From positions 1,505 to 65,504 of the forward strand of contig CACWHY010000006.1 in NCBI GenBank assembly GCA_902760805.1: a stretch of DNA of 64,000 bases, read 5' to 3'. Of this stretch, positions 28,778-51,984 are shown piece by piece. Positions within the stretch are counted from its first letter, which is position 1. The number at the start of each line of letters is the position of its first letter. Under the pieces are notes generated by a model that was not told the DNA's origin, made no database searches, and saw nothing but the letters and a program-made list of their open reading frames with translations. The DNA is from Ruminococcus flavefaciens (GTDB lineage Bacteria > Bacillota > Clostridia > Oscillospirales > Ruminococcaceae). The translations under genes and the position numbers were made by a program.

Positions 28778-31486
28778 ATGAAAAAATTACAAAAGGCAGC
28801 CGCTATCTCAGCGGCAATGTGCCTCTGTGCTGTAGGCACTGCACAGGGCATCGCTCCCGCAGCAAGAACTGCTTTTGCTGCAACAAAGGACATCTCATCA
28901 GAAATGGAATGGGGCACGCTCAGAATGGGCGGAGCAGGCTTCGTTTCAGGCATCGTGACCGGCCAGAAGGAAATGTATCTCCGTACAGACGTAGGCGGCG
29001 TGTACAGATACAACTACGAGAAGAAGGCCTGGGATCAGCTTTTCGGCTTCGTCAGTGAGGACGACAGAGGTCTCCTCAGCTGTAAGGGAATAGCTATCGA
29101 CCCCACAGACGACATGACAGCCTACTTCCTCTGCGGCTGTGCTTACTTCTCTGACGCTAAGACTGTTATCTTCAAGACGACCGACGGCGGCAAGACCTTC
29201 ACCAGCGCTGACGTTACCGACATGATCCAGGTACACGGAAACGGCGACGGACGTGAGTGTATCGAGCCTATCGCTGTTGACCCTGACGACCCCGATACTA
29301 TCTACGCAGGCGGCGATGTTACCGGCGGCAAGTCCGCTCTCATCAAGTCAACTGACGGCGGCAAGACCTGGAACCCTGTTGAGGGCTATGACGCTCTGGG
29401 TCTTTTCTCCGGCGAGCTCAAGTACCCCAAGTGGACTGACCACATGGTAAGAGGCACTGAGCCCAGCAAGGAATACAACGAGCAGAACGGTATCGGCTGC
29501 GTTTACATCGAGGGCGGCAAGGTCTATGTCGGAACTTCTGTTACCGGTCAGGCAAATATCCACGTTGCAAGCGTTAAGGACGATAAGTTCGAGGCTATCG
29601 ACGCTCTCCCACACACAGACTATCCCCTTTCTATCACCAGCGACCACAACGGCAATCTCTTCTTCACATACATCGGCGGACTCGCTTTTGCAGGCGGTTC
29701 CGGCGGAGCTTATAAGTATGAGATCAAGTCCGGAAAGGTGGAGAAGCTCTCTGTTTCCGACAATGCTGTCGGTATGATCGAGGTGGACAAGAAGGATCCC
29801 AACAAGATGTTCGCCCGTACCTGCGGCGTTTGGTCCGATCAGTGGTACGAGAAGGTCTGGACCGATGGCTCTATCGCTTGGGGCGACCACTTCTTCCGCT
29901 CCTCTGACGGCGGTAAGACCTGGGAGGACATCACTCCCGGCGCCGGCGAAACTGACTACTCCACAGGGGAAGGCGTAAAGATCTTCAAGTCGCTCCCTAT
30001 CGATACAAATGGCTACGACTGGATCTACGGCAAGGCCTGCCACTGGGGAAGCGGTATCGTTATCGACCCCAGAGACCCTGAGGGCGACAGGCTCCTGCTC
30101 ACTTCAGGAAACGGCGTTTTCGCCTGCGATAATGCTTGGGATGAAATGGACATCCAGTTCTACTTCCAGCCCGACGGCGTTGAGGAGTGCGTAAGTCTTG
30201 ACTTCTTCAGCACAGCTGACGGTCTTGACCTCTCCGCTATCGGCGACTATGACGGATTTATCCACACAGGTAACAATACTATCCCTCAGCAGTACAAGCC
30301 TAACATGGGCTCTACCTCAGCTATCACTGTTTGTCCCCAGAATACCGATGTTTGGGCAAGAATAGCTGAAGGCGACGGCAACAATCAGGGCAGCGGCTAT
30401 GTAACACTTGACCGTGGCAAGACCTGGACTCCCTTCAACGCAGCTTTCAAGGGAGGCAAGCTCTCGATCACTGAGCTCTCTGCCGGCAAGTACAGGATCA
30501 TCAACTCCGGCGGCGGCGGAGATAAGGGCAGCGGTATCTCTTATTCTGACGACCTGGGCAAGACATGGACAAAGAGCGATGGAGTACAGGTCTCAAAGGC
30601 TTCTTATACTCTCGTTGACCCCGAGGATCCCAGCATCGTTTACGCTTCCGGCGCAAAACACAACGACTACTGGTCCTCCGATCTGACCAAGAAGGAGCCC
30701 ACATTAGAGGAGTCCCACTACTCTTATTACATCAGCGAAGACTACGGCGCTTCCTTTAAGGAAGTTGTTATCTGCCCCTACAACTGGGAGCTGACATGGA
30801 AGTTCGAGAACACCGGCGACCTGGCTTATCTGGGCAACGGCACTGTTGCTCTGGCAGGCGCAAACCACGGTCTGTTCATTATCTCAGACAAGGGAAATAA
30901 GGTGGAGCAGCTGGATACCGTTTCCTATGCAAAGTGCGTTGGCTACGGCGCTCCCGAGAAGAAGGGCAGCCCCAACACACTGTTCCTCTTCGGTAAGCCT
31001 GAACAGTCCGATCCCGAGGGCATCTACCGCTCAACTGACAGCGGAAAGACCTGGGTCTGCATCAGCTCAGATCACATCTACGGCGGTACCGGAAACGGCA
31101 ACTACCTGGTAGGCGACATGGATGAGTTCGGCAAGGTCTATATGTCAACTGTCGGCTGCGGTATCGTTTACGGACAGCTCGCAAGCGGCGGAGGCACTCC
31201 TTCCACTGACCCCACCACAAAGCCCGGCACAAAGGCTGACTGGGGCGACGCAAACGTTGACAAGAAGGTAGACCTGAACGACGCTGTTGCTATACTTCAG
31301 TACGCTGCACTTCCGGGAAAGTACCCTCTCACTGAGCAGGGCGCTGTCAACGCTGACGTTGTTGACAATGGCACCAGCGGAATTACCGGAATAGATGCGC
31401 TTTCGATCCAGATGTTCGATGCTAAGCTCTTCACGCAGGACGCTTGGCCTATGACAAAGAGCAAAATGGAATCATTCCTCAAGTAA
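28778..31486 (+). CDS. Secreted GH74-type xyloglucanase with dockerin
   Basis: A 902-aa extracellular enzyme. Residues 1-35 are a signal peptide ending AFA. Residues 40-805 form a two-propeller GH74-like catalytic region: WGTLRMGGAGFVSGIVTG and LRTDVGGVYRYN match the family N terminus, where an Asp in RTDVGG is the catalytic candidate. Seven Asp-box-like motifs occur, such as STDGGKTW, SSDGGKTW and SDDLGKTW. A Pro/Thr linker (PSTDPTTKPG) leads to a dockerin (about 825-890) with two duplicated calcium-loop segments, GDANVDKKVDLNDAVAILQY and a second starting NADVVDNG. The dockerin should plug the enzyme into a cohesin scaffold, i.e. a cellulosome. GGAGG precedes the ATG. Single-gene unit. Confidence 0.92.
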   Translation: MKKLQKAAAISAAMCLCAVGTAQGIAPAARTAFAATKDISSEMEWGTLRMGGAGFVSGIVTGQKEMYLRTDVGGVYRYNYEKKAWDQLFGFVSEDDRGLLSCKGIAIDPTDDMTAYFLCGCAYFSDAKTVIFKTTDGGKTFTSADVTDMIQVHGNGDGRECIEPIAVDPDDPDTIYAGGDVTGGKSALIKSTDGGKTWNPVEGYDALGLFSGELKYPKWTDHMVRGTEPSKEYNEQNGIGCVYIEGGKVYVGTSVTGQANIHVASVKDDKFEAIDALPHTDYPLSITSDHNGNLFFTYIGGLAFAGGSGGAYKYEIKSGKVEKLSVSDNAVGMIEVDKKDPNKMFARTCGVWSDQWYEKVWTDGSIAWGDHFFRSSDGGKTWEDITPGAGETDYSTGEGVKIFKSLPIDTNGYDWIYGKACHWGSGIVIDPRDPEGDRLLLTSGNGVFACDNAWDEMDIQFYFQPDGVEECVSLDFFSTADGLDLSAIGDYDGFIHTGNNTIPQQYKPNMGSTSAITVCPQNTDVWARIAEGDGNNQGSGYVTLDRGKTWTPFNAAFKGGKLSITELSAGKYRIINSGGGGDKGSGISYSDDLGKTWTKSDGVQVSKASYTLVDPEDPSIVYASGAKHNDYWSSDLTKKEPTLEESHYSYYISEDYGASFKEVVICPYNWELTWKFENTGDLAYLGNGTVALAGANHGLFIISDKGNKVEQLDTVSYAKCVGYGAPEKKGSPNTLFLFGKPEQSDPEGIYRSTDSGKTWVCISSDHIYGGTGNGNYLVGDMDEFGKVYMSTVGCGIVYGQLASGGGTPSTDPTTKPGTKADWGDANVDKKVDLNDAVAILQYAALPGKYPLTEQGAVNADVVDNGTSGITGIDALSIQMFDAKLFTQDAWPMTKSKMESFLK

Positions 31487-33845: not shown

Positions 33846-35213
33846 ATGGACTATGGATTTTCACGCATCACACCTGAGATCATGCGGCTGGCTGAAAAGT
33901 CACTGGACGGCTATCGCATCGATCCCGAGCTCTACACCCAGTACGACGTAAAGCGAGGCCTTCGTGACATCAACGGCAACGGCGTTGTTGCAGGCCTTAC
34001 GAACATCAGCACCATCAAGGTGCTGGACACAGGCGACGGTATGCCCAACCACGGTGACGGAAAGCTCTACTACCGTGGCATCGACGTTGAGGACATAGTC
34101 GCCGGCTTTATGAAGGAAAAGCGCTTCGGCTTCGAGGAGACCGTTTACCTGCTCCTCTTCGGAAATATGCCCTCTGAGGGCGAGCTTTCCTCCTTCAAGA
34201 AGATACTGGCTGATTTCCGCAGCCTGCCTTCTACCTTCACAAGAGATGTGATCATGAAGGCTCCCAGCGACAACATGATGAACACCCTTGCAAAGTGTGT
34301 TCTTGCGCTTTATTCCTACGATAATTCCGCAAATGACATCTCTATCCCAAACGTTCTCCGCCAGTGCATCGAGCTGATCACGCTCTTCCCGGTGCTTGCG
34401 GTGTACGGCTACAACGTTTACAAGTATTCCCGTGACGGAGGCTCTCTGTTCATCCACGATCCTCAGCCTGAGCTTTCCATTGCGGAGAATTTGCTGTATA
34501 TGCTCCGCCCGGACAAGCAGTATACCGAGCTGGAGGCCAGGCTCCTTGACCTTGCTCTGGTGCTGCACGCTGAGCACGGCGGCGGCAACAATTCCACCTT
34601 CACGGTACACGTTGTTTCCTCTTCGGGAACTGACACTTATTCGGCAATAGCTGCTGCTCTTGGCTCTCTCAAGGGGCCCAAGCACGGCGGCGCCAATATC
34701 AAGGTGGCCATGATGTTCGACGACATGAAGGCCAGCGTCAAGGACTGGACTGACGAGGACGAGGTGAGGAACTACCTGCGCAAGCTGCTCCACAAGGAGG
34801 CCTTCGACCGTGCAGGCCTGATCTACGGCATGGGTCACGCTGTTTACTCTCAGTCTGACCCGAGAGCAAAGGTGTTCAAGGGCTTCGTCGAGAGCCTTTC
34901 ATCTGAGAAGGGCCGCCACGACGAGTTCGCCCTGTATTCACTGGTGGAGCGTCTTGCTCCCGAGGTCATCGCCGAGGAGCGCCGCATCTACAAGGGCGTC
35001 TGCGCAAACGTTGACTTCTACAGCGGCTTCGTTTACCGTATGCTGGGCATCCCGGACGAGCTCTTTACGCCGATCTTCGCAGTTTCAAGAATTGCAGGCT
35101 GGTCCGCTCACCGCATCGAGGAGCTGATCAACTCAAACAAGATCATTCGCCCGGCTTACAAGGCCATTTCTCCCATGCACGCCTACACCGATATGGAGCA
35201 CCGCATGGACTAA
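33846..35213 (+). CDS. gltA: Citrate synthase, copy 2
   Basis: A 455-aa citrate synthase of the same clostridial type as the copy at 3300-4652. Catalytic His, His and Asp lie in LHAEHGGGNNSTF, YGMGHAVYSQSDPRA and NVDFYSG. It has the host's C-ending codon preference and a strong promoter with a structured leader, so it is probably the housekeeping copy. A 140-aa membrane protein gene follows 10 bp later. The start codon at 33846 follows AAAGGA with rather long spacing. Confidence 0.95.
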   Translation: MDYGFSRITPEIMRLAEKSLDGYRIDPELYTQYDVKRGLRDINGNGVVAGLTNISTIKVLDTGDGMPNHGDGKLYYRGIDVEDIVAGFMKEKRFGFEETVYLLLFGNMPSEGELSSFKKILADFRSLPSTFTRDVIMKAPSDNMMNTLAKCVLALYSYDNSANDISIPNVLRQCIELITLFPVLAVYGYNVYKYSRDGGSLFIHDPQPELSIAENLLYMLRPDKQYTELEARLLDLALVLHAEHGGGNNSTFTVHVVSSSGTDTYSAIAAALGSLKGPKHGGANIKVAMMFDDMKASVKDWTDEDEVRNYLRKLLHKEAFDRAGLIYGMGHAVYSQSDPRAKVFKGFVESLSSEKGRHDEFALYSLVERLAPEVIAEERRIYKGVCANVDFYSGFVYRMLGIPDELFTPIFAVSRIAGWSAHRIEELINSNKIIRPAYKAISPMHAYTDMEHRMD

Positions 35214-39769: not shown

Positions 39770-39798
39770 TTGACAAAAGGCAATATATTTGTTATACT
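39770..39798 (+). promoter_or_regulatory. Promoter of the eight-gene transport operon
   Basis: TTGACA (39770-39775) and TATACT (39793-39798) with a 17-bp spacer. Start of transcription expected near 39805. Confidence 0.82.
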
Positions 39799-40052: not shown

Positions 40053-43016
40053 TTGAATAAATATGCACTTTACCGGAGACTGGCCTCTGGTATATTGTCG
40101 TGCGCTGTTGCCGCCGGACTCTCTCCCGGCTGCTTGCAGGCCCTGGCTGCGGAGGATCCGGTTTCTCAGGAGACCCTTGCCGCTATGCAGGAAGACTATT
40201 ACTATATCGAGCCCGTGGATACCGGCATCCCTACTCACAGCGAGTATTTCGACCAGTATTCCGGCGAAAACCGCCCCGACGTCCAGGTCGAGGTCCGGGG
40301 CAATGACTATGTTTCTGCGGAAAACGGAGACTTCGCCTCGGGCAGCTACGGCTCAGAAGGCGATGTCCGTGACGACGTTCTCATCTGGGAGAGCGCCGAC
40401 GGCCTCCTGACCTACAAGGTGGACGTTCCGGAAACAGGAAATTACTGCATAAATATGACGTATTTCCCTATCGAGTCTAACAGTTCCTCAGTGGAGCTGT
40501 CTATGAAAATCGACGGTGTTACGCCATTTGACACGGCTTCTCGTATCACTCTCAGCAGGATCTGGGTGAACGAAACGGATATTTATACAGATTCCCGTGG
40601 AAATCAGGTCCGCCCCTCTCAGATCCAGAAGGGTATGTGGCGGAGCTGCGATCTCGGCGACGTGGACGGACTTTTCAACGAGCCCCTGTTCTTCTACCTT
40701 GAAAAAGGCACCCATGAGATCTCGTTCTACTCAGAGCGTGCTCAGCTGGCTATCGAGAGCTTCAAGCTGTACAACCCCGAAGAACTGCCCTCCTACAGCC
40801 AGTACGCCTCCTCCGCTGAGGCCGGCGTTTCCAAGGAGAGCACCCCGGCTAAGGTCTTCCGCATCGAGGGCGAGGACGCCGTTTTCAAGTCCGACTCTAC
40901 CCTCTACCCCACTTATGATAATACCAACTACCTGGTGTCTCCCTCTGACCCCACGAAGGTAGTTTACAACACACTGGGCAGCGGCAACTGGAAGAAGGCG
41001 CTCCAGTCCGTTACCTGGGAGATCCCTGCTGACCAGATCGGCAGCTCCGGCTGGTATCGCATCGGTATCAAGTCCCGCCAGAACACCATGCGTGGCTTCT
41101 ACTCCAACCGCCGTGTCTACATCGACGGACAGGTGCCTTGCAGCGAGCTGGATCAGGTGAAATTCTACTACGGCACCGATTGGAGCGTGGTAACTCCCCA
41201 GACAGACTCCGGCGAGGACGTTTACGTTTATCTTGACGCCGGTCAGGATCACACCATCACCATGGAGGTCATCCCCGGCGAGATCGGCGACTCCATGAGA
41301 AAGCTGGATGAGGTGGTCGCTAAGCTCAATACCTATTATAGAAAGATACTCATGATCACCGGCCCCTCTCCCGACCAGTACACCGATTACTACGTTCATG
41401 AGAAAATCCCGGAGCTGGTGGACGAGTTCGATAGGCTCTCAGGTGAGCTGAAGGACATTCAGTCCGGTATCGAGAGCTTGTCCGGCTCAGAGGGCTCTGA
41501 GGCTGCGGCTCTTGAGCGTATGACGGTCATTCTTGACAAGTGTACGAAAAAGCCCCTGAAGATCCCGGATTACCTCTCTCAGATCAAGGAGAACATCACC
41601 TCGATCTCCGCTTGGATGAGGGATTACCGTGACCAGCCCCTTGAGGTGGACTACATCGAATTTGCCTCTCAGGGAGCAGACTTCGCAGACTGCGACACCA
41701 AGCTGGGCAAGAGCATCAGCTTCGGCGTGAAGGGCTTCTTCGGATCCTTCTTCGAGGACTACACCACCCTTTCAGACGTTACCGGCGAGGACGCCATCGA
41801 CGTTTGGGTATCGCTGGGCCGTGATCAGGCTCAGGTGGTAAAGGAAATGGCCGAGAACCAGTTCATGCAGGATACCGGGATCCCGATCTCGGTAAACCTC
41901 GTTATCGGCGGTGTCGTTGAGGCTACTCTTGCAGGAAAAGGCCCCGATGTTGCGCTGTTCCTGGGCGGAGAATTCCCCGTGAACCTGGCTGCCCGTGACC
42001 TTCTGGTGGACGTTTCAGACACAACGCAGTTCCCGGACTTTGAGCAGGTCTCTCAGCGCTTCCAGGAGAACGCTATGACTCCCTATCAGTTCAACGGCGG
42101 CACCTACGGTCTGCCTATCAGCCAGACCTGGCCAATGCTCTTCTACCGCACAGACGTGCTCACTGAGCTGGGCTACACATCGCCTCCCGAGACCTGGAAC
42201 GACCTTATAGATATGCTGCCCGCTCTCCAGAGGAACTATATGTCCGTGGGACTTATCCTTCCTCCCACAAATATCTCCCCCGCAACTGAGGCAGGACACA
42301 CCTTCGCAATGCTCCTGCTGCAAAAGGGTCTGAACTACTACAACGAGGGACAGACAGCCTCTACCTTCGATTCTATCGAGGCCGTGCAGTCCTTCGAGGA
42401 GTGGACGGACTTCTACACAAAGTACAGCTTCGACCAGACCTACGACGCTTTCAGCCGTTTCAGGACCGGCGAATACCCCATTCTTATCGCAAACTACACC
42501 TTCTTCAATCAGCTCACCGTGGCTTCTCCTGAGATCAAGGGACTGTGGGACTTCTGTCAGGTGCCCGGTACTCTCCGGGAGGACGGAACTATCTCTCATG
42601 CGGCAAACTCCAACGGCGCCGGTGCTGTTATTTTCAAGAAGGTAAAGAACAAGCAGAACGCCTGGGAGTTCATCAAGTGGTTCACTGAGGCTGATACTCA
42701 GGTGCAGTACGGAACTCAGATCGAAGGCCTCCTGGGAACTATGGGACGCTTCGACACCGCTAACCTTGAGGCTCTCAGTGAGCTGTCATGGTCACACAGC
42801 GAGTACGACCGCCTGAAGGATCAGCAGGACGAGCTGGTGGAGATCCCCGTTATCCCATCGTCCTACGCTGTTACAAGAAATATCATGAACGCTTTCAGAG
42901 AAGTCGTCAACGAGCTTGAAAATCCCCGTGATACTCTGGTTTGGTACAACCGTGACATCAACGACGAGATCACAAGAAAACGTGAAAATCTCGGTCTTGA
43001 CACCGACGAGAACTAA
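40053..43016 (+). CDS. Extracellular sugar-binding protein with large N-terminal extension
   Basis: A 987-aa ABC-type solute-binding protein. The start is taken as TTG at 40053, 6 bp after GGTGGAG; it gives MNKYALYRRLASGILSCAVA, a signal peptide ending near ALAAED. There is no proper lipobox. Residues about 50-250 and 260-410 look like two beta-sandwich, carbohydrate-binding-like domains (LLTYKVDVPETGNYCINM; VFRIEGEDAVF). A helical stretch (410-520) follows. The C-terminal 430 residues are a family-1 sugar-binding protein (IDVWVSLGRDQAQVVKEMAE, GKGPDVALFLGGEFPVNLA, TYGLPISQTWPMLFYR). Usual binding proteins have about 430 residues in total. First gene of the operon. Confidence 0.85.
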   Translation: MNKYALYRRLASGILSCAVAAGLSPGCLQALAAEDPVSQETLAAMQEDYYYIEPVDTGIPTHSEYFDQYSGENRPDVQVEVRGNDYVSAENGDFASGSYGSEGDVRDDVLIWESADGLLTYKVDVPETGNYCINMTYFPIESNSSSVELSMKIDGVTPFDTASRITLSRIWVNETDIYTDSRGNQVRPSQIQKGMWRSCDLGDVDGLFNEPLFFYLEKGTHEISFYSERAQLAIESFKLYNPEELPSYSQYASSAEAGVSKESTPAKVFRIEGEDAVFKSDSTLYPTYDNTNYLVSPSDPTKVVYNTLGSGNWKKALQSVTWEIPADQIGSSGWYRIGIKSRQNTMRGFYSNRRVYIDGQVPCSELDQVKFYYGTDWSVVTPQTDSGEDVYVYLDAGQDHTITMEVIPGEIGDSMRKLDEVVAKLNTYYRKILMITGPSPDQYTDYYVHEKIPELVDEFDRLSGELKDIQSGIESLSGSEGSEAAALERMTVILDKCTKKPLKIPDYLSQIKENITSISAWMRDYRDQPLEVDYIEFASQGADFADCDTKLGKSISFGVKGFFGSFFEDYTTLSDVTGEDAIDVWVSLGRDQAQVVKEMAENQFMQDTGIPISVNLVIGGVVEATLAGKGPDVALFLGGEFPVNLAARDLLVDVSDTTQFPDFEQVSQRFQENAMTPYQFNGGTYGLPISQTWPMLFYRTDVLTELGYTSPPETWNDLIDMLPALQRNYMSVGLILPPTNISPATEAGHTFAMLLLQKGLNYYNEGQTASTFDSIEAVQSFEEWTDFYTKYSFDQTYDAFSRFRTGEYPILIANYTFFNQLTVASPEIKGLWDFCQVPGTLREDGTISHAANSNGAGAVIFKKVKNKQNAWEFIKWFTEADTQVQYGTQIEGLLGTMGRFDTANLEALSELSWSHSEYDRLKDQQDELVEIPVIPSSYAVTRNIMNAFREVVNELENPRDTLVWYNRDINDEITRKRENLGLDTDEN

Positions 43017-43033
43017 GGAAGGAGGAATATCGC

Positions 43034-43975
43034 TTGGCTAAGATCGCTGCCGAGGACATCGGCAAAAGAACTAAACAGGAAGAGCGCCGCATGATGTGGC
43101 ACTCAGTCAAGCAGAACAAGGCCTGCTATCTGATGCTGGCTCCGTTCATGCTGTTCTTCCTGGTATTCACGATCGTCCCTGTAGTAATGTCCCTCCCCAT
43201 GGGCTTTACGGATTTCAACATGGCTCAGGCCCCGAAATTCATCGGACTTTCAAACTATACCACCCTTTTCCTTTCGGATAAGATCTTCGTAAAATCTATC
43301 AGAGTCACCATAGTTTTCGCCCTGTTCACAGGCCCCCTGAGCTATGTTCTGTGCTTCCTGCTGGCTTGGCTCATCAATGAGCTCCACCCGAAGCTGAAAA
43401 CTCTGTTCACTCTCATCTTCTACGCACCCTCAATGGCTCCCGTTTATACCACCTGGCAGATGATATTCAGCGGTGATATGAACGGCTACGCAAACTCCTT
43501 CCTTATCAACTTAGGTCTTGCCAACTCTCCCATACAGTGGCTCACCGATGCCAACTACGTCCTGGGAGTCACGATCATAGTTCAGCTGTGGATCTCACTG
43601 GGAGCCGGCTTCCTGGCACTCCGTGCGGGATTCCAGAACATCGACCGCTCAATGTACGAGGCAGGCGCTATCGAGGGTATCCGCAACCGCTGGCAGGAGC
43701 TGATCTACATCGTTATCCCTTCAATGGGTCCTCAGCTCATGTTCGCTGCGGTAATGCAGATCGTAAGCTCATTCACCGCAGGTACTGTTGCACAGAACCT
43801 GGTGGGCTTCCCCAGCACCGACTACAAGGCACACACCATCATGACCCACGCCTTCGACTACGGCTGGGTAAGATACGAAATGGGCTACGCCTCGGCGATA
43901 TGTATGATACTGTTCGTCGTCATGTACCTGCTGAACAAGCTGATCAGCAAGGTGCTGAGCAAATACATGGACTAA
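43034..43975 (+). CDS. Sugar ABC permease, MalF type (pair 1)
   Basis: A 313-aa permease with six membrane segments. The ATPase-contacting EAA loop is YEAGAIEGIRNRWQELIYIV with the following IP. The start is TTG at 43034, 8 bp after GGAGG. It pairs with the next gene. Confidence 0.92.
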   Translation: MAKIAAEDIGKRTKQEERRMMWHSVKQNKACYLMLAPFMLFFLVFTIVPVVMSLPMGFTDFNMAQAPKFIGLSNYTTLFLSDKIFVKSIRVTIVFALFTGPLSYVLCFLLAWLINELHPKLKTLFTLIFYAPSMAPVYTTWQMIFSGDMNGYANSFLINLGLANSPIQWLTDANYVLGVTIIVQLWISLGAGFLALRAGFQNIDRSMYEAGAIEGIRNRWQELIYIVIPSMGPQLMFAAVMQIVSSFTAGTVAQNLVGFPSTDYKAHTIMTHAFDYGWVRYEMGYASAICMILFVVMYLLNKLISKVLSKYMD

Positions 43976-43987
43976 GGAGGCGAAGAA

Positions 43988-44872
43988 ATGGCACAGTCAA
44001 TGGTCAATACCGAAAAACTCAAGGCGAGCAACAAACAGGCCGGCAGAAAGATCGGCGGAACGGTAGCTATCTTCGTTTTCCTTATCGTTCTCGGACTCTT
44101 CATGCTGTTCCCTATCTATCTTATGATAGTTATGGCAATAAAGCCTGTTGAGGAGCTGTTCATCTTCCCCCCGAAGCTCCACGCTATCAACCCTACCCTC
44201 AACAATTTCAAGGATATGTTCGAGGTCATGCACCAGAACAGAGTTCCCTTCTCAAGATACGTCTTCAACTCTGTCCTCGTTACCGCAACTGTAACGATAC
44301 TCCAGTGCTTCTTCGCTTCCATGGCCGCATTTGTGCTTGCAAAGTGCAAGTTCCCCGGAAACAAGATCCTCAACAGCATCATCGTCGTTGCACTTCTCTA
44401 TCAGAGCAACGTCATCTACATCATGCAGTACATCGTTATGGCGAAGCTGCATATGATCGACACCTACTGGGCACTGATCCTGCCCGCTATCGCTTCGCCT
44501 ATGGGACTGTTCCTTATGAGGCAGTCCATAGGTCAGGTCCCCGACGCTATGATCGAAGCCGCTAAGGTGGACGGCGCAGGCCTCTTCCGTATCTGCTGGC
44601 AGATCGTTATGCCCAACCAGAAGCCTGCCCTGATGACCCTGATCATCTTCGCTTTCCAGGCCGCTTGGAACATCCAGTCGGGAACGGTAGTTTTCCAGGA
44701 GCAGTACAAGACCCTCACCACCGTTGCAACTCAGGCTGCCTCCGCAGGACTTGCAAGAGCAGGCGTTGCTATGGCGGCACAGGTGTTCGTGTTCATCCCG
44801 CCCATCGTTGTGTTCATGCTGGCGCAGAGACAGGTCATCGAGACCATGGCTCACTCCGGCATCAAGGACTAA
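43988..44872 (+). CDS. Sugar ABC permease, MalG type (pair 1)
   Basis: A 294-aa permease with six membrane segments; its EAA loop is IEAAKVDGAGLFRICWQIVM followed by P. VLAKCKFPGNKIL and SPMGLFLMRQ are typical MalG blocks. AAGGAGG precedes the ATG, 12 bp after the MalF-type gene. Confidence 0.93.
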   Translation: MAQSMVNTEKLKASNKQAGRKIGGTVAIFVFLIVLGLFMLFPIYLMIVMAIKPVEELFIFPPKLHAINPTLNNFKDMFEVMHQNRVPFSRYVFNSVLVTATVTILQCFFASMAAFVLAKCKFPGNKILNSIIVVALLYQSNVIYIMQYIVMAKLHMIDTYWALILPAIASPMGLFLMRQSIGQVPDAMIEAAKVDGAGLFRICWQIVMPNQKPALMTLIIFAFQAAWNIQSGTVVFQEQYKTLTTVATQAASAGLARAGVAMAAQVFVFIPPIVVFMLAQRQVIETMAHSGIKD

Positions 44873-44884
44873 GGAGGTGGGGAC

Positions 44885-46495
44885 ATGAGAAATATTTCTG
44901 CTAAGCTGATCTCGCTGGCTATTGCCGGAGCTGCGGCTTTCGGCTCCGCCGCCTCATTCACCGCTTCCGCCGCTGAGCCCTACGATGTGTACAACTATGA
45001 CCGCTGGGGCGAGGCTATCCCCTCTCAGGCCGGATATATCGCCGACAGAGCTGTCTCAGGCATCGACCTTGGCGTAGGAGCCTTCAGCTCTCCCAGCGAC
45101 ATCTTCCGTGACCACAACGACATATTCTACATAGTTGACGGCGGAAATAACCGCATCGTCGCTGTGAACTCAGAGCTCACAGAGGTGGTGAAGGTCTATG
45201 ACAGCTTCACCATGCCCGACGGCTCAAAGACTACTCTGAAAAATCCTCAGGGAGTTTATGTTTCTGCGGAGAACGATTGGCTCTACATCGCCGATAACGA
45301 GAACTCCCGTGTGCTGATCGCCGATCTTGAGGGAAACGTCATCAAGGAGATCACCAAGCCTACCTCCGAGGTCTATGACCAGAAGAGGACATTCCTCCCT
45401 CAGAAGGTCATCGCTGACAAGGCCGGGAACGTTTACGTTGTGCTGGGAAATATCACCACCGGTGCCGCTATGTTCGATCCCGAGGGCGAATTCACCGGCT
45501 TCTACGGCGCAAACCGTGTCCAGCCTACTGCTGAGATCGTGGGCAACTACATCACCAGCCTCTTCACCTCTGAGGAGAAAAAAGCACGGCGCAGGAGAAA
45601 TGTTCCCACAGGCATCACCAGCTTCGACATCGACGGCGACTTCATCTTCACCTGTACCTCCTCGTCAACTCAGACTACGGATACCGTGAAGAAGCTCAAC
45701 GCCGCCGGAAGGAACATCTTCGCAAATATGGAGCTGGCCTTCGGCGACTATACTCCCATGTACGACACCTCTCAGAACAAGGTGCTCCAGCCGGCGATCT
45801 GCGACATCGACATCGCTGACGACGGCAATATCAACTGTCTTGATTTCACTACCGGACGTGTGTTCCAGTACGATGAGGACTGCAACCTGCTGTTCATAAC
45901 GGGCACTATCGCCAAGCAGGTGGGCGGCTTCGACCACGTTGCTGCTCTTGAAACTATGGGCGAGAACCTGTACGTTCTGGATTCACAGAAGGACACCGTT
46001 ACTGTTTTCGTGGAGACTGACTTCGGAAAGATCGTCCACAAGGCAACGGCTCTCCACAACGCCGGCTACTATGAGGAGGCTCTCGATCCCTGGTACGAGG
46101 TCCTCAAACACGACGGAAACTACCGCAGAGCCTACGTTGGCGTAGCCTCAGCACTGCTGAGAAAGGGCGACTATGAGGGCTCCATGAAATACGCTGAGCT
46201 GGCGGACTCTCCCAGGATCTACAACAAGGCCTTTGAGGGCTACCGCATGGACTGGCTGAAGGCTCACTTCGGACAGCTCATATTGGGGCTGGCTCTGATC
46301 GCTGTGGGGCTGTTTATGCTTGCACGGCTGGCAAAAAAGAAGAAGGCCGCTGAGCTTGCTCAGCATATGGCTCAGGAGGACGCTGCGGCAGAGGCTGAAC
46401 ACCAGCAGCACGTCCGTGAGGCTGCCCGAAAGGCCGTTGAGGAAATGGCTGAGCAGTCCGAAAATGAAGGAAAGGAGGATGAGCAGAACTCATGA
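44885..46495 (+). CDS. Membrane-anchored NHL-repeat protein with TPR-like tail
   Basis: A 536-aa extracytoplasmic protein. Residues 1-31 are a signal peptide (ASFTASAAEP). Residues 60-390 form an NHL-type propeller, e.g. IFYIVDGGNNRIVAVNSE and WLYIADNENSRVLIADLEG. A short helical, TPR-like region (ALHNAGYYEEALDPWYEVLK, VASALLRKGDYEGSMKYAEL) precedes a single membrane segment (LILGLALIAVGLFMLARLA) and a charged Ala/Glu-rich coiled tail inside the cell. It may act as a surface scaffold that holds the soluble binding protein or the DUF5696 protein near the permeases. Its stop overlaps the next start (ATGA). Confidence 0.8.
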   Translation: MRNISAKLISLAIAGAAAFGSAASFTASAAEPYDVYNYDRWGEAIPSQAGYIADRAVSGIDLGVGAFSSPSDIFRDHNDIFYIVDGGNNRIVAVNSELTEVVKVYDSFTMPDGSKTTLKNPQGVYVSAENDWLYIADNENSRVLIADLEGNVIKEITKPTSEVYDQKRTFLPQKVIADKAGNVYVVLGNITTGAAMFDPEGEFTGFYGANRVQPTAEIVGNYITSLFTSEEKKARRRRNVPTGITSFDIDGDFIFTCTSSSTQTTDTVKKLNAAGRNIFANMELAFGDYTPMYDTSQNKVLQPAICDIDIADDGNINCLDFTTGRVFQYDEDCNLLFITGTIAKQVGGFDHVAALETMGENLYVLDSQKDTVTVFVETDFGKIVHKATALHNAGYYEEALDPWYEVLKHDGNYRRAYVGVASALLRKGDYEGSMKYAELADSPRIYNKAFEGYRMDWLKAHFGQLILGLALIAVGLFMLARLAKKKKAAELAQHMAQEDAAAEAEHQQHVREAARKAVEEMAEQSENEGKEDEQNS

Positions 46496-47121
46496 TGGAT
46501 CTGACTACTAAGGAATGGGTCAAGCACGCCGTGACGCACCCCTTCGAGGGCTTTGAGGATATGCGCTGGAAAAAGTCCGGCTCGCTCAAGGTGGCGTTCC
46601 TCATCGTGTTCCTGCTCTTCCTTGCGACTATAGCTGACGGAAGACTTTACGGCTTCCAGTTCGGCGTTTCCTACGACAAGACCTTCAACATCATCCCCTA
46701 CATCGTGAAGAGCATCGTGCTCTTTGCGGCCTGGGTAGTGGGCAACTGGTCGATCTGTACCCTCCTTGACGGCGAGGGCACCATGAAGAACATCTGCATC
46801 TACAGCGCCTATGCACTGGTGCCGTACATCGCACAGGTCTTCATCACAGTGATCCTCTCCCACTTCCTCATCCAGGACGAGGTGGTCTTCATACAGGCCA
46901 TAAGGATCCTAGGCACGGGCTGGACGGTGATACTGCTGTTCTCGGCGATCAAGTCTGTACATCAGTATTCCTTCGGAAAAACGGTCTTCGCTATCGTGCT
47001 GACCATTGCCGCTATGCTGGTGATGCTGTTCCTGCTGGTGCTCTTTATGTCACTGGTACAGCAGGTCTACATCTTCCTTTCAACGATCTACACCGAGATC
47101 TCCTACAGGATCCGGGTCTGA
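46492..47121 (+). CDS. Yip1-family membrane protein
   Basis: A 209-aa protein with five membrane segments. The start, KEWVKHAVTHPFEGFEDMRW, and the later WVVGNWSICTLLDGEGTMKN block are typical of bacterial Yip1-domain proteins. The role is unknown; it always looks like a helper of neighbouring membrane systems. Translation is coupled to the NHL gene; a second in-frame ATG follows at 46495. Confidence 0.85.
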   Translation: MMDLTTKEWVKHAVTHPFEGFEDMRWKKSGSLKVAFLIVFLLFLATIADGRLYGFQFGVSYDKTFNIIPYIVKSIVLFAAWVVGNWSICTLLDGEGTMKNICIYSAYALVPYIAQVFITVILSHFLIQDEVVFIQAIRILGTGWTVILLFSAIKSVHQYSFGKTVFAIVLTIAAMLVMLFLLVLFMSLVQQVYIFLSTIYTEISYRIRV

Positions 47122-47139
47122 TGAAGGGAGGGCATGATA

Positions 47140-49986
47140 ATGAAGAACAAGATCAAACGCTTTCTGCTCTGCTTTTTAGCAGTCTCTATGGCAACTGTCT
47201 CCGGTGCTGTCAAGGCTGACGGCGAGGAGGAAACTGCCGCAGAAGTCACCGAGGAGGCCTCCGCTGAGGAGGAGTCCACAGGTGACGCTGCTGCACAGAA
47301 GCCTGCTAAGCTGAAGGAGACAGAGGAAAAGGTCAAGGCTGAGGCCTCTGACATTACTGCATACCTTCCCAAGATCGGCACTATCGAGGGTCTGGACATC
47401 TACCTGAAGGACAAGGATTTCGATGACGCTATCTGGGAGAAAAACGGCGGAAAGCCCGCCAAGAAAAAGGATTACACCGAAGAGCAGGAGGCTCTCAGCG
47501 ATGTTATCGACGAGCTGAAAAAGCTGGGCGACCTGATCGCGATCGACGCCCAGTCCGGTGAGGCTGTGGCTTCCTTCAAGGACAGCAGCAAGGTGGACGA
47601 CGGGCTGATGTACGTCAGCGAGGCCGGGCGCTATCTGCTGACCGTGGACAAGGACAAGACAAAGCCTCTCAAGCTCATGGAGGTCATCTCAACTATCGAC
47701 GATCCTCAGCTCTTCCGCTCTGCCGACGGCAAGACCTTAGAGCTCACTGACTCAAACTACAAAAAGGTCACAGAGACCTACACCTACAGCGGCAAGGAGA
47801 ACGGACGCACCGTCTTCTACAACGCTGACAAGTCCGCCTTCGCTTGGCTTTCTGAGGACGAGAAAAAGGTGGAGGGCACCTTCACCTACGCTGCGGAAAA
47901 CGATAAGTTCCGTATGCTGGTGGACCAGCGGCTTGCCAATATCGGCCTGGAGAACAAGGAGACCGGCTACATCTGGTGGTCATCTCCCCTGGAGGCCACC
48001 CGTGATCAGGTGGCGACCCCTCTGCTGATCAGCGAGCTGCGCTCATCGAACACTCTGCGCTACGGCATCCCCGAAAGGCGCTCAAACAACAATGTGGTCC
48101 GCTCAGGAACTGACGACTGCACGATCACTGTAAGCAAGATAAACAACGGTATCAAAGCCGTTTACGACTTCCAGAAAGCTGGATTCAAGTACCCCGTGGA
48201 GTACGTCCTTGAGGACGACCATCTGAAGGCCTCAGTCAAGGTGGCTGAGATACAGGAGTCAAATGCCGCAAATATCGCTACAGAGCTCACCGTTTTGGGC
48301 AGCTTCGGCGCTGCGGATATGACCGAGGAGGGCTACTTCGTGGTACCTGACGGAAGCGGCGCTCTGGTGCGGTTCAACAATCAGAAGACCATGGACACAA
48401 ATGCCTATCAGCAGAGAGTTTACGGCTCAGATGTGACTGTTGTTCCCACAAGCAAAGGCGCTGTCACTGAGCAGATATACCTGCCCGTTTACGGCATCGT
48501 CAAGGAGGACAACGCCTGCCTGGTGGTGGCCTCTAAGGGCGACTCAAATGCTGTTCTCTCCGCTCAGGTATCAAAGCAGTCCAATTCCAGCTATAACCTG
48601 TGCAGCTTCACCTTTATCCTTCGTGGAACTGACACCTTCTATATGTCAGGAAACAGCAACGACAAGCTGACAGTTTTCGAGAGCGGCGCCATAAAGTCAG
48701 ACGACATCGAGCTGAGATACTACCCCATCGCAAAAGAGGGAGCTGACTACACTGACATTGCTGCTCGCTACAGACAGTACCTCACCGAGGAGGCCGGAGT
48801 TTCTGCAAAAACAGAAGCCGGGAAGTCTCCCATGTACGTTGACCTCTACGGCGGAACTCAGAAGAAAAAGCCGGTGCTTGGCATACCTGTCACCATGAAG
48901 CAGAAGATCACCACCTACGATCAGGCCGGCCAGATCCTCTCTCAGCTGAAAAACAGCGGCGTTGACGACATCGTGGTCTCATACAACAACTGGACCAACG
49001 ACGGCATCAAGAACAAGGTGGACACTGAGGCCAAGCCCTCAGGCACTCTTGGCGGAAAGAGCGATTTCAAGGGGCTCACAGACCTTATCTCTCAAAACGG
49101 TTTTGAGCTCTACCCCTCCTCCGACGACAGAGATTTCTACTCCGGAAACGGCTACTACTCATTCACCAGCACAGCCGTGAGAGTTTCCGGATCTTACTCC
49201 AGGATCATCAGCTACGACAGAGCCTATGGCATACCCGACGGCTTCAAGAAGAATATGTCCCTGCTCTCACCCAGCCTCTTCGACGAGGTGTACAGCGACG
49301 TTGCGGACAATTACTCAAAGGCCGGCCTCAGCGGAGTTTCTATCGGAAACATGACCACATCGCTCTACGGCGACTACGGAAAGAAGAATATCTCCCGTGC
49401 AAAGGCCATGGATCTGATCTGTGCAAGCTATGATAAGCTGGGAAGCTCACTGTCCGAGGGCATCTTAGCGGACGCTGCCAACGCCTACGCTCTGCCTTAT
49501 GTTTCCCACATAACAAGCGTACCGCTGAACTCCAGCCGCTTTGACCTGTTCAACGAGGACATACCATTCTACCAGATGGTAATGCACGGACTTATCCCCT
49601 ACTCCACGACCGCCGTCAACGGCGATGCCGATCCTACGACTCTGCTGCTGATGGCGGCAGCTACGGGATCTGGTCTGAGCTACGATATGCTCTATGAGGA
49701 GACCAGCGTTCTCAAGGACACTGAATTTGACGTTCTCTACTACGCAAATTACCTTAACTGGACCGATACTGCGTCCAGAGAATACAAACTCTTGCAGCCC
49801 CTGCTGAGCAAGGTCAGCAGCTGCACTATCGACGGCTATGAAGCTGACGGCGACCTTATCACCACTACCTACTCTGACGGTACTGTGGTGAAGGTGGACC
49901 TCCAGCAGAAGACCGTTGAATATGACGGCAATACGCTGTCACTTGAAAATATCGATCAGGAAGGAGGTGCTCAGGAAAATGGCTGA
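47140..49986 (+). CDS. Secreted DUF5696 protein, glycoside-hydrolase-like layout
   Basis: A 948-aa protein. The start at 47140 is 8 bp after GGAGG; ATG 47134 is too close to it. A signal peptide (KRFLLCFLAVSMATVSGAVK) and an Ala/Glu-rich linker lead into a beta-rich region (to about 560). From 565 on the pattern suggests a TIM barrel: MYVDLYGGTQKKKPVLGIPV, ILSQLKNSGVDDIVVSYNNW, and GISIGN-like strands such as LSGVSIGNMTTSLYGDYG. Asp and Glu residues at strand ends (e.g. SDDRDFYSG) could be catalytic. I recall the family as DUF5696; the relation to glycoside hydrolases is my inference. It is the largest gene of the operon. Confidence 0.78.
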   Translation: MKNKIKRFLLCFLAVSMATVSGAVKADGEEETAAEVTEEASAEEESTGDAAAQKPAKLKETEEKVKAEASDITAYLPKIGTIEGLDIYLKDKDFDDAIWEKNGGKPAKKKDYTEEQEALSDVIDELKKLGDLIAIDAQSGEAVASFKDSSKVDDGLMYVSEAGRYLLTVDKDKTKPLKLMEVISTIDDPQLFRSADGKTLELTDSNYKKVTETYTYSGKENGRTVFYNADKSAFAWLSEDEKKVEGTFTYAAENDKFRMLVDQRLANIGLENKETGYIWWSSPLEATRDQVATPLLISELRSSNTLRYGIPERRSNNNVVRSGTDDCTITVSKINNGIKAVYDFQKAGFKYPVEYVLEDDHLKASVKVAEIQESNAANIATELTVLGSFGAADMTEEGYFVVPDGSGALVRFNNQKTMDTNAYQQRVYGSDVTVVPTSKGAVTEQIYLPVYGIVKEDNACLVVASKGDSNAVLSAQVSKQSNSSYNLCSFTFILRGTDTFYMSGNSNDKLTVFESGAIKSDDIELRYYPIAKEGADYTDIAARYRQYLTEEAGVSAKTEAGKSPMYVDLYGGTQKKKPVLGIPVTMKQKITTYDQAGQILSQLKNSGVDDIVVSYNNWTNDGIKNKVDTEAKPSGTLGGKSDFKGLTDLISQNGFELYPSSDDRDFYSGNGYYSFTSTAVRVSGSYSRIISYDRAYGIPDGFKKNMSLLSPSLFDEVYSDVADNYSKAGLSGVSIGNMTTSLYGDYGKKNISRAKAMDLICASYDKLGSSLSEGILADAANAYALPYVSHITSVPLNSSRFDLFNEDIPFYQMVMHGLIPYSTTAVNGDADPTTLLLMAAATGSGLSYDMLYEETSVLKDTEFDVLYYANYLNWTDTASREYKLLQPLLSKVSSCTIDGYEADGDLITTTYSDGTVVKVDLQQKTVEYDGNTLSLENIDQEGGAQENG

Positions 49987-50905
49987 GGCTAAAGCAGAAA
50001 AGAAAAAGGGCATAAAGATGCCCTATGAGAAGCGCAAGGCCATGTACGGCTACGGCTTCATCGCTCTGTGGATGGTGGGCACACTGTTCTTCTTCCTGAT
50101 ACCTCTTGTGAAGAGCCTTTGGTACTCATTCAATGAGGTCTCGATCGGTACAGGAAAAATGCTCACGAAGTTTGTGGGACTTGAGAAGTATGACTACGTT
50201 CTCAACACCGATCCCAACTACACCACATACCTGAAGGATATGCTCCTTGAAACTCTGTGGAAAACTCCTCTGGTACTGATATTCTCGCTGTTCATCGCAG
50301 TTATCCTCAACCAGAAGTTCCGTGGAAGGACTCTCTCACGAGCAATATTCTTCCTCCCCGTTATCATTGCAACGGGTCCTGTTTACAAGATCATCAACGG
50401 CGACATGAGCTCTACCGGAAACACCGGAGCTGCTCAGTTCTCCACAATGTTCTCAACTGACCTTGTGGGCGAGCTGCTGCAATTCCTGGGTATCTACGGA
50501 CTTTCTGACAAGATGAGCACCATGATCTCCACAGTTGCCGACAATATCTTCGGCATCGTCTGGGCAAGCGGTATCCAGATACTCCTGTTTTTGGGAGCTC
50601 TCCAGAACATACCGCCCTCCGCTAAGGAGGCCGCTCAGATGGAGGGCGCTACAGCCTGGGAGTATTTCTGGAAGATCACACTCCCCTACGTCAGCCCCTT
50701 CATTCTGGCAAACCTTATCTTTACCGTTATCGACTCCTTCACAAGCCCCATGAACACCGTTATGGGACGTATCCTCACCATGAAAGAGGAGTGGAAGTTC
50801 GGCGAGGCCTCTGCAATGGCGTGGATCTACTTCGCTATCGTGCTGGCTGCCGTTGGTCTGGTAACTGCCATAGTAAATAAGTTTATTTACTATGAGGTCG
50901 AATAA
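49979..50905 (+). CDS. Sugar ABC permease, MalF type (pair 2)
   Basis: A 308-aa permease with a Lys-rich N terminus (MAEAKAEKKKGIKMPYEKRK) and six membrane segments; the EAA loop is KEAAQMEGATAWEYFWKITL followed by P. The ATG at 49979 overlaps the DUF5696 gene by 8 bp and follows AAGGAGGTG. It is clearly different from the MalF-type protein of pair 1. Confidence 0.92.
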   Translation: MAEAKAEKKKGIKMPYEKRKAMYGYGFIALWMVGTLFFFLIPLVKSLWYSFNEVSIGTGKMLTKFVGLEKYDYVLNTDPNYTTYLKDMLLETLWKTPLVLIFSLFIAVILNQKFRGRTLSRAIFFLPVIIATGPVYKIINGDMSSTGNTGAAQFSTMFSTDLVGELLQFLGIYGLSDKMSTMISTVADNIFGIVWASGIQILLFLGALQNIPPSAKEAAQMEGATAWEYFWKITLPYVSPFILANLIFTVIDSFTSPMNTVMGRILTMKEEWKFGEASAMAWIYFAIVLAAVGLVTAIVNKFIYYEVE

Positions 50906-50919
50906 GGGAGGTGCAAGTC

Positions 50920-51951
50920 ATGACTGATACTACTGGTGCTGTCGTTAAAAGCGAGAGCGAGATCGGCGGCGGACTTACTCCCAAGGAGGCAAAAAAGCGC
51001 CGAATGGAACAGATGACCGCTGAGGAGAGAGGCTACCTTAGGCGTAAGGCTCTCATGGAGGCTGTCTGGCCCTTTTTCCGCTTCGTGATACTCTTCGGAC
51101 TGGGCTTCGTTATCCTTTATCCACTGATCTACATGGTAAGCTGTACCTTCCGTGAGCGCAGCGATATGACTGACCCCACGGTAATGTGGATCCCCAGACA
51201 CTACACACTGAAGGTGCTGAAGGAGACCATAAGCGCTATGGATTTCTGGAACACCCTCAAGACAACTCTCCTGCTGAACATCGGCTGTTCCTTCGTGCAG
51301 GTGCTCTCCTGCGCTGTAACGGGCTACGGCTTCGCAAGATTCAAGTTCAAGGGCAAGGGACTGCTCTTCGGGATAGTCATCATGATGATCCTTGTTCCCA
51401 CACAGGTCATCGCTCTTCCCCTGTATGCACAGTTCCGATTCTTCGGCATAAGAGGACTGTTCAGCATCAACCTCATTGACACTATGTGGACCATGTACCT
51501 GCCGGCGATCACCGGAAACGGTATCCGCTCAGGCCTGATGATCCTGATCTTCCGCCAGTTCTTCCGTGGGCTGCCCAAGGAGCTGGAGGACGCCGCCTAC
51601 ATCGACGGCTGCGGACCCTTCATGACCTTCATCAGGGTAATGATCCCCAACGCAGGCTCGGCCTTCCTGACCGTGTTCCTGTTCTCAGTGGTGTGGTACT
51701 GGAACGACTACTATGTCAGCTCCACCTTCTTCACCAACACCCAGACTGTGGCAAAAATGCTGCAAAACCTGGACACTCAGCTCAAGCAGAGGCTGTTCAA
51801 CTCCGCCACTATCGAGATCTCGCCCAGAGAGCAGATCGTGTGGAAGGAGGCAGGCTGTCTGCTTTCGATCACACCGATCCTGGCGCTGTATGTCTGCCTG
51901 CAAAAGTATTTCACCGAGGGCATCGCCCGTTCGGGAATTACCGGAATATAA
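50920..51951 (+). CDS. Sugar ABC permease, MalG type (pair 2)
   Basis: A 343-aa permease; the EAA loop is EDAAYIDGCGPFMTFIRVMI followed by P, with Asp in place of the first Glu-Ala pair. The N terminus is extended by about 50 charged residues. The start at 50920 lies 8 bp after GGGAGG; a GTG at 50911 lies inside the binding site. Last gene of the operon, followed by a terminator. Confidence 0.92.
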   Translation: MTDTTGAVVKSESEIGGGLTPKEAKKRRMEQMTAEERGYLRRKALMEAVWPFFRFVILFGLGFVILYPLIYMVSCTFRERSDMTDPTVMWIPRHYTLKVLKETISAMDFWNTLKTTLLLNIGCSFVQVLSCAVTGYGFARFKFKGKGLLFGIVIMMILVPTQVIALPLYAQFRFFGIRGLFSINLIDTMWTMYLPAITGNGIRSGLMILIFRQFFRGLPKELEDAAYIDGCGPFMTFIRVMIPNAGSAFLTVFLFSVVWYWNDYYVSSTFFTNTQTVAKMLQNLDTQLKQRLFNSATIEISPREQIVWKEAGCLLSITPILALYVCLQKYFTEGIARSGITGI

Positions 51952-51954
51952 GGA

Positions 51955-51984
51955 AAAGGGACTGCATTTGCAGTCCCTTTTTTG
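51955..51984. terminator. Bidirectional terminator after the transport operon
   Basis: AAAAGGGACTGC and GCAGTCCCTTTTTT pair over ATTT. Confidence 0.92.

Follow-up and report, generated by a model that had tools for sequence, protein, structure and literature searches.

A conserved eight-gene cluster with two CUT1 permease pairs and a DUF5696 protein in Ruminococcus flavefaciens: a candidate glycan import system

Ruminococcus species rank among the important degraders of plant cell walls in the rumen and gut, and how such degraders import the breakdown products is understood only partly. A 64,000-nucleotide stretch of Ruminococcus flavefaciens DNA (assembly GCA_902760805.1, contig CACWHY010000006.1, forward-strand positions 1,505 to 65,504; hereafter the window, in which all coordinates are given unless a locus is named) poses this question in a specific form. 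At 40053-51951 it carries eight genes in the order SBP1-F1-G1-NHL-Yip1-DUF5696-F2-G2, which encode a very large solute-binding protein (SBP1), two pairs of permeases of the CUT1 type of ATP-binding cassette (ABC) sugar importer (F1-G1 and F2-G2), an NHL-repeat protein, a Yip1-family membrane protein and a protein of the family DUF5696. Do these genes specify one import system, or two importers that merely travel together, and which ATPase would power them? We favor a single CUT1-type machine, assembled at the cell surface, that would import plant-derived glycans through two permease pairs powered by a shared ATPase and that would include a probably non-catalytic DUF5696 protein, and we assign this reading a probability of roughly 0.55.

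The arrangement is far from peculiar to the window. Most of the named relatives carry the label Ruminococcus, which puts the window in that genus. The nearest of them has a DUF5696 protein 90% identical to that of the window, and all eight genes occur in the same order in 61 of 79 loci of named relatives (a set that overlaps partly with the same-genus loci of our genome sample), a few of them with a cut or split gene, as for SBP1 in L090 and L065. The remaining 18 loci end at a contig end where the absent genes would fall. Outside the genus, 66 hand-chosen DUF5696 regions from 47 genomes, one of them (L149) from the same family, preserve the order in 46 cases; NHL and Yip1 are two genes in 29 of these and a single fused open reading frame (ORF) of about 660-920 residues in the other 17, with a Yip1 part that reaches E-values down to 1e-80. 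The other 20 are truncated, broken, rearranged, or missing a part as judged by home-made profiles. The preliminary description of this DNA had named a gene order unique to this genome as grounds for refuting its reading; the order is widespread, and that objection fails. A chance cluster of one lineage is likewise ruled out by the conserved gene order.

DUF5696 itself was found in 24 of 24 same-genus genomes searched (the window's own included), in 8 of 16 genomes that represent other families within the order and, above cut-off, in 68 of 245 genomes of the class and 39 of 398 of the phylum; the set is therefore widespread but patchy. The genome richest in copies (G033) carries up to six. A second, shorter DUF5696 subfamily is present in five genomes of the class sample (G090, G214, G219, G043 and G051), as frames of about 565-610 aa that match (E about 1e-40 to 1e-57) from profile position 187 or so onward only. 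The set is also present, according to their own annotation, on pNP243 of Butyrivibrio fibrisolvens and on a plasmid of Paenibacillus cellulosilyticus, and most of the single genes are already named in these records. In the latter, NHL and Yip1 give way to a single "YIP1 family protein" of some 720 residues, which would include the NHL part to judge by its length and place.

Conservation of order is accompanied by evidence that the genes behave as a unit. Strong DUF5696 matches (E < 1e-80) occur in 56 of the 245 class genomes and strong matches to the SBP1 front part (E < 1e-70) in 55, thresholds that were set after the lists were seen and that score weaker matches (12 genomes for DUF5696, 9 for SBP1) as absent. 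Both are found in 54 genomes, DUF5696 only in 2, SBP1 only in 1 and neither in 188. Of the exceptions, the two with DUF5696 alone have a completeness of 73% and 75%, and the one with SBP1 alone carries a fragment of DUF5696 at the edge of a contig. Pairwise distances correlate between all eight genes (Spearman 0.58-0.82) over 46 loci with every gene full length in any order (a different list from the 46 same-order loci), a correlation that could come from common descent alone. More telling are copies that share a nearest relative elsewhere across all or nearly all of their genes. For all eight, locus L175 (genome G160) pairs with L178 (G131), from another family, and L179 (G131) with L136 (G542), from another class; L176 and L146 are nearest relatives for seven of the eight. 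Such copies are unlike other copies of their own genome, and because of this shared ancestry some cassettes at least appear to have moved as a whole.

Within the window, the eight ORFs (Table 1) are separated by 17, 12, 12, -4, 12, -8 and 5 bases, GGAGG-like sites precede the genes, and the layout makes a single operon likely. The one-strand, eight-gene cluster between a promoter and a hairpin terminator that had been described earlier is borne out by the ORFs, the Pfam matches and the promoter and hairpin scan. An alignment of six loci, the window and five hand-chosen from the 79, retains the promoter hexamers in all six, some of which have A in place of C at a single site of the second hexamer; the TTG start is identical in all six, and the leader of about 250 bases between promoter and TTG diverges. 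The terminator scan assigns the hairpin to the - strand, its + strand T run being a reading by eye. No Rfam element was found at the gathering threshold in the window. What places the set among CUT1 importers is an SBP_bac_1/8-type extracellular domain together with two BPD_transp_1 permeases, here as two pairs. F1, G1 and G2 exceed the Pfam cut-off, and F2 scores 24.5 bits against a cut-off of 26.4. The two permease pairs first described stand as four CUT1 permeases; of the four EAA loops said to distinguish them, those of G1 and F2 match the strict pattern, and those of F1 and G2 are degenerate and recognized by eye only. The NHL protein has NHL and TPR matches in the PDB, its TPR-like repeats being a profile match to consensus TPR proteins, and a hydropathy peak at residues 465-483 marks its C-terminal membrane helix.

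Table 1. Features of the eight-gene cluster, in window coordinates.
Feature	Position	Strand	Description	Evidence
Promoter	39770..39798	+	TTGACA-17-TATACT	11/12 consensus match
SBP1	40053..43016	+	Giant solute-binding protein, 987 aa, TTG start	Pfam, AlphaFold model
F1	43034..43975	+	CUT1 permease (MalF/UgpA-like)	BPD_transp_1 2.2e-9
G1	43988..44872	+	CUT1 permease (MalG/UgpE-like), EAA loop EAAKVDGAGLF	BPD_transp_1 above cut-off
NHL	44885..46495	+	NHL beta-propeller, TPR, one C-terminal membrane helix	NHL 1.5e-5; PDB matches
Yip1	46492..47121	+	Yip1-family membrane protein, 4-base overlap with NHL gene	Yip1 3e-14
DUF5696	47134..49986	+	DUF5696 protein, 950 residues: signal peptide, beta-rich front, predicted GH101/GH129-like barrel	DUF5696 5.5e-165 (550.8 bits)
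F2	49979..50905	+	CUT1 permease, EAA loop EAAQMEGATAW; ATG 49979 behind GGAGG	BPD_transp_1 just under Pfam cut-off
G2	50911..51951	+	CUT1 permease (MalG-like)	BPD_transp_1 8.1e-19
Hairpin	51954..51981	+	Probable intrinsic terminator	3' arm enters TTTTTT on + strand (by eye)

No ATPase gene lies within the cluster, as had been noted at the outset. A truly missing ATPase is ruled out, since a candidate exists in the genome. The window's own genome (96.5% complete) has 59 ABC_tran matches versus one OB_MalK match, and the latter belongs to an orphan ATPase (L206:7013-8167), unlinked to the cluster, that passes the NCBIfam UgpC model at 478.8 bits against a cut-off of 432. Among upstream neighbors of the set in other genomes, an ABC_tran match was seen in 1 of 42, not closely related to the orphan, and no close relative of the orphan (E 1e-40) was found in the scanned flanks of other loci. 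In the P. cellulosilyticus plasmid record, ugpC stands directly in front of SBP1. The orphan MalK-type ATPase would then serve this set. The operon first proposed, which would import glycans through two permease pairs powered by a shared ATPase, gains support as an inference from this sole OB_MalK orphan and from the P. cellulosilyticus ugpC. Precedents exist for such sharing: according to the accessible text of the papers concerned, MsmX of Bacillus subtilis is common to several CUT1 importers (PMC5730181), and the Athe_0595-0598 importer of Anaerocellum bescii uses a remote ATPase, MsmK (PMC12838199).

SBP1 matches SBP_bac_8/SBP_bac_1 in Pfam (1.1e-23). It has a signal peptide, and its AlphaFold model (pLDDT 80.7) predicts two beta-rich domains (about 79-407), a helical stalk (412-526) and a binding domain (about 570-987). 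The closest solved relative of the binding domain is Lin1841 (5ysb, 1.8e-21; also 5yse), a beta-1,2-gluco-oligosaccharide binder of about 390 residues that lacks the front part and stalk of SBP1; because identity in the structural match is about 21%, too distant, its substrate is not transferable to SBP1. The front part of the window protein has no family match at E 0.01. In relatives, it matches CBM_35 (10 of 21) or CBM_6 (2 of 21), carbohydrate-binding module (CBM) families that in SBP1 are fused to an ABC binding domain. The family profile of the front part also matches PDB 5x7g, a cycloisomaltooligosaccharide glucanotransferase (1.3e-8), a chain that we take to bear a CBM35. The stalk gives matches to designed coiled coils in the PDB profile search. 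A large glycan as the captured substrate, as first suggested, would be in keeping with the CBM35-like front domains seen in relatives. Only 3 of 54 SBP1 proteins are lipoprotein-like by a crude motif, a scarcity unusual for a Gram-positive binding protein.

The DUF5696 protein presents a different problem, that of a predicted glycosidase fold in which catalysis has to be judged from alignment columns. Its AlphaFold model (pLDDT 82.8) combines a beta-sandwich and a barrel as in the glycoside hydrolase (GH) families GH101 and GH129. Foldseek ranks GH129 first (5opq, 1.9e-30; 5wzr, 2.1e-26; TM-score by target 0.64-0.70 for GH129 chains), followed by GH101 (from 2.1e-19; for example 3ecq), and a profile comparison with three GH101-like proteins gives a weak match (probability 84%, E 8.7e-7 global and 7.6e-6 local). 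Sequence relatives in the PDB were limited to one chance-level match, and no GH129 sequences were found in the phylum genome sample, where the controls gave no match either. In GH101, the residues D764 and E796 mutated in PDB titles are presumably the catalytic Asp and Glu, each at the end of a barrel strand. The global alignment puts the GH101 nucleophile on T742 and the acid/base on I777, the local alignment stops short of both, and the register is uncertain.

Conservation was therefore read over whole stretches, in 66 DUF5696 sequences from 65 outside-genus loci (two from one), pieces shorter than 650 residues being left out. Within 732-750, position 747 alone is acidic in more than 25 of the 66 (51, plus 8 with Asn); within 772-790, no column exceeds 19; and nowhere in the barrel is a column acidic throughout the 66. 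Elsewhere, 52 of the sequences have an acidic residue at position 807, where the window protein has Asn, and 43 have one at position 808. Position 843 is acidic in 63 of 66 outside the genus (Glu in 62), whereas 9 of the 11 Ruminococcus rows have Ala there; the Ruminococcus branch therefore differs at an otherwise conserved position. P811, F812, N829, G409 and Y539 are identical in all 66. The trimming of bound glycan that the preliminary description had entertained for DUF5696 is left unsupported, because no clearly conserved catalytic pair emerges from these counts, in contrast to GH129 and GH101 themselves. The alternative that DUF5696 is catalytically active and trims glycan bound at the surface, perhaps by means of a different catalytic pair, is compatible with every other reading considered here; the predicted fold and the acidic residues at 747, 807 and 808 speak for it, the GH101-matching strands lack conserved acidic columns besides 747, and the Ala at 843 and the want of a fully acidic barrel column count further against it. 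On balance we consider it quite improbable. More probably, DUF5696 has a glycosidase fold with a conserved patch from which hydrolysis has been lost, a view weakened by the acidic 747 and the uncertain GH101 register, with which the protein may still be active.

How these parts would work together can be proposed as follows. SBP1 would grip the glycan through CBM35-like domains carried on its helical stalk, and its binding domain would load oligosaccharides into the F1-G1 channel. F2-G2 would form a second channel of the same machine, with an ordinary solute-binding protein standing beside it in some other genomes, and the cell's one MsmX/UgpC-type ATPase, encoded elsewhere, would drive both channels. 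NHL-Yip1 may be a membrane-anchored propeller that acts as scaffold in the membrane, and DUF5696, its hydrolysis probably lost, could hold glycan or serve as a docking part at the surface. The strictest form of this proposal makes the eight proteins one physical two-channel importer, with a CBM-armed SBP1 and a dead glycosidase over two permease heterodimers, joined by NHL-Yip1 and powered by one shared ATPase. We advance that form tentatively, as a doubtful possibility.

The main rival to a single machine takes SBP1-F1-G1 and F2-G2, the latter with a binding protein of its own, as two independent CUT1 importers kept together for successive products of one polysaccharide, with NHL, Yip1 and DUF5696 as accessories of one of them. 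A second, ordinary binding protein does stand next to F2-G2 in a fair share of the other loci. Outside the genus, 22 of the 100 neighbors scanned downstream and 11 of the 42 scanned upstream match SBP_bac_1 among the matches listed, raw counts that carry no background rate. (Downstream, 107 proteins of 48 loci passed a size filter, 100 were scanned and 25 of 132 families listed; upstream, 42 of 45 proteins were scanned and 25 of 42 families listed.) The modules can also be swapped, as in L187 and L189, where the block NHL-Yip1-DUF5696-F2-G2 stands before SBP1-F1-G1, or apart, as in L137, L138, L185 and L186, where SBP1-F1-G1 does not adjoin the rest of the set. Many isolated copies (for example L142, L156, L168, L171 and L173) show no common nearest relative across genes. 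The nearest glycosidase-like gene in the window, among the proteins searched, is about 9 kb off, and the P. cellulosilyticus copy (L213:18195-27418) has four LLM flavin-dependent oxidoreductases after it, together with two further binding proteins; the oxidoreductases are unlike polysaccharide breakdown and hint at a non-polysaccharide substrate there. The rearranged modules, the isolated copies, the distant glycosidase-like gene and the oxidoreductases all weigh against one glycan-importing machine.

Two separate importers are nevertheless hard to reconcile with strong DUF5696 and SBP1 matches that almost never occur apart, with the shared history of some copies over all eight genes, and with the Ruminococcus lineage, where home-made profiles found no second binding protein in the flanks fetched for the 79 loci (at least 3 kb lies downstream in 55 of the 72 loci that show G2). 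Searching the rest of the window's own genome for a binding protein to pair with F2-G2 was fruitless. We regard this rival as rather unlikely. The single binding protein of the preliminary description holds for Ruminococcus, within those flanks, and does not hold elsewhere, where a second stands beside some copies.

The remaining neighbors vary from genome to genome. Among the matches listed for the 100 downstream neighbors, again with no background rate, GH26 appears in 4 and GH2, GH42, GH10, GH5, GH31, GH43, GH16 and fucosidase in 2 each. Ten hand-picked neighbors include GH30, GH43, GH26, GH42 and GH3, and also ribonucleotide reductase and a transglutaminase-like protein. The pNP243 set of B. 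fibrisolvens is accompanied by GH43, a two-component pair and two more solute-binding proteins, and AraC- or LacI-type regulators adjoin a few copies outside the genus. Different copies seem, from such neighborhoods, to serve different glycans. The two-component pair and the regulators would also suit a role in which some members of the set gauge glycan outside the cell and signal instead of importing, by analogy with the glycan-sensing CuaD-CuaSR of Ruminiclostridium cellulolyticum (accessible text of PMC10384115). We consider this very unlikely: complete copies keep four permeases, the set contains no kinase, and the regulators vary between genomes.

Several other features of this genome were noted in passing. 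About 9 kb upstream of the cluster, the window encodes a 902-residue BNR/sortilin-type repeat protein (28778-31486), with repeats presumably as in GH74 xyloglucanases, and it also contains two citrate synthase genes (3300-4652 and 33846-35213). Two related large binding proteins (L204:1932-9104 and L205:6300-8687, frames of 843 and 796 residues) have weak C-terminal matches to solute-binding proteins; one adjoins two permeases, an HlyD-like and a MacB-like protein, and around the other the fetched stretch shows no permease. On contig C44, the protein encoded at L200:299-3066, which has a hydrophobic stretch at its N terminus, stands directly before a binding protein paralogous to one on contig C13, an arrangement that resembles the CuaD-CuaSR sensing layout.

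Published expression data offer one lead. In the accessible text of an RNA-seq study of Ruminococcus albus 7 (PMC4300822), Rumal_1426 (hypothetical, Sec), Rumal_1427 and Rumal_1428 (hypothetical, TM) are up 4.3-4.7 fold on cellulose versus cellobiose, and Rumal_1427-1429 are among the authors' putative ABC transporter operons. The layout of Rumal_1426-1429 fits DUF5696-Yip1-NHL-G1, a lead by layout only.

No paper in the literature searched, whose coverage omits most subscription journals and preprints and so gives weak evidence of novelty, mentions DUF5696, describes a set that combines NHL, Yip1 and sugar permeases, or gives DUF5696 and NHL-Yip1 a part in sugar uptake. This agrees, within that coverage, with the preliminary description, which knew of no system of this make-up. 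If the eight genes encode one machine, they would represent a new architecture for ABC sugar import in Gram-positive bacteria; if they encode two importers, the set would still be a marker for glycan-uptake loci and give DUF5696 a testable role.

Two known systems invite comparison. The A. bescii locus Athe_0595-0598, a cello-oligosaccharide transporter of a cellulose degrader, has two solute-binding proteins, one permease pair and the remote shared ATPase MsmK (PMC12838199). The preceding gene, Athe_0594, encodes a GH5 endoglucanase, for which reason the locus was rejected as the same cassette, and the accessible text mentions no DUF5696, NHL or Yip1 protein, unlike the present set. The AraNPQ, CycB-GanPQ, YtcQP-YteP and YesOPQ importers of B. 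subtilis (PMC5730181) resemble it in that a solute-binding protein and two permeases depend on one shared ATPase, MsmX. Each of these, in the accessible text, has a single permease pair and no mention of NHL, Yip1 or DUF5696, whereas the R. flavefaciens set has two pairs.

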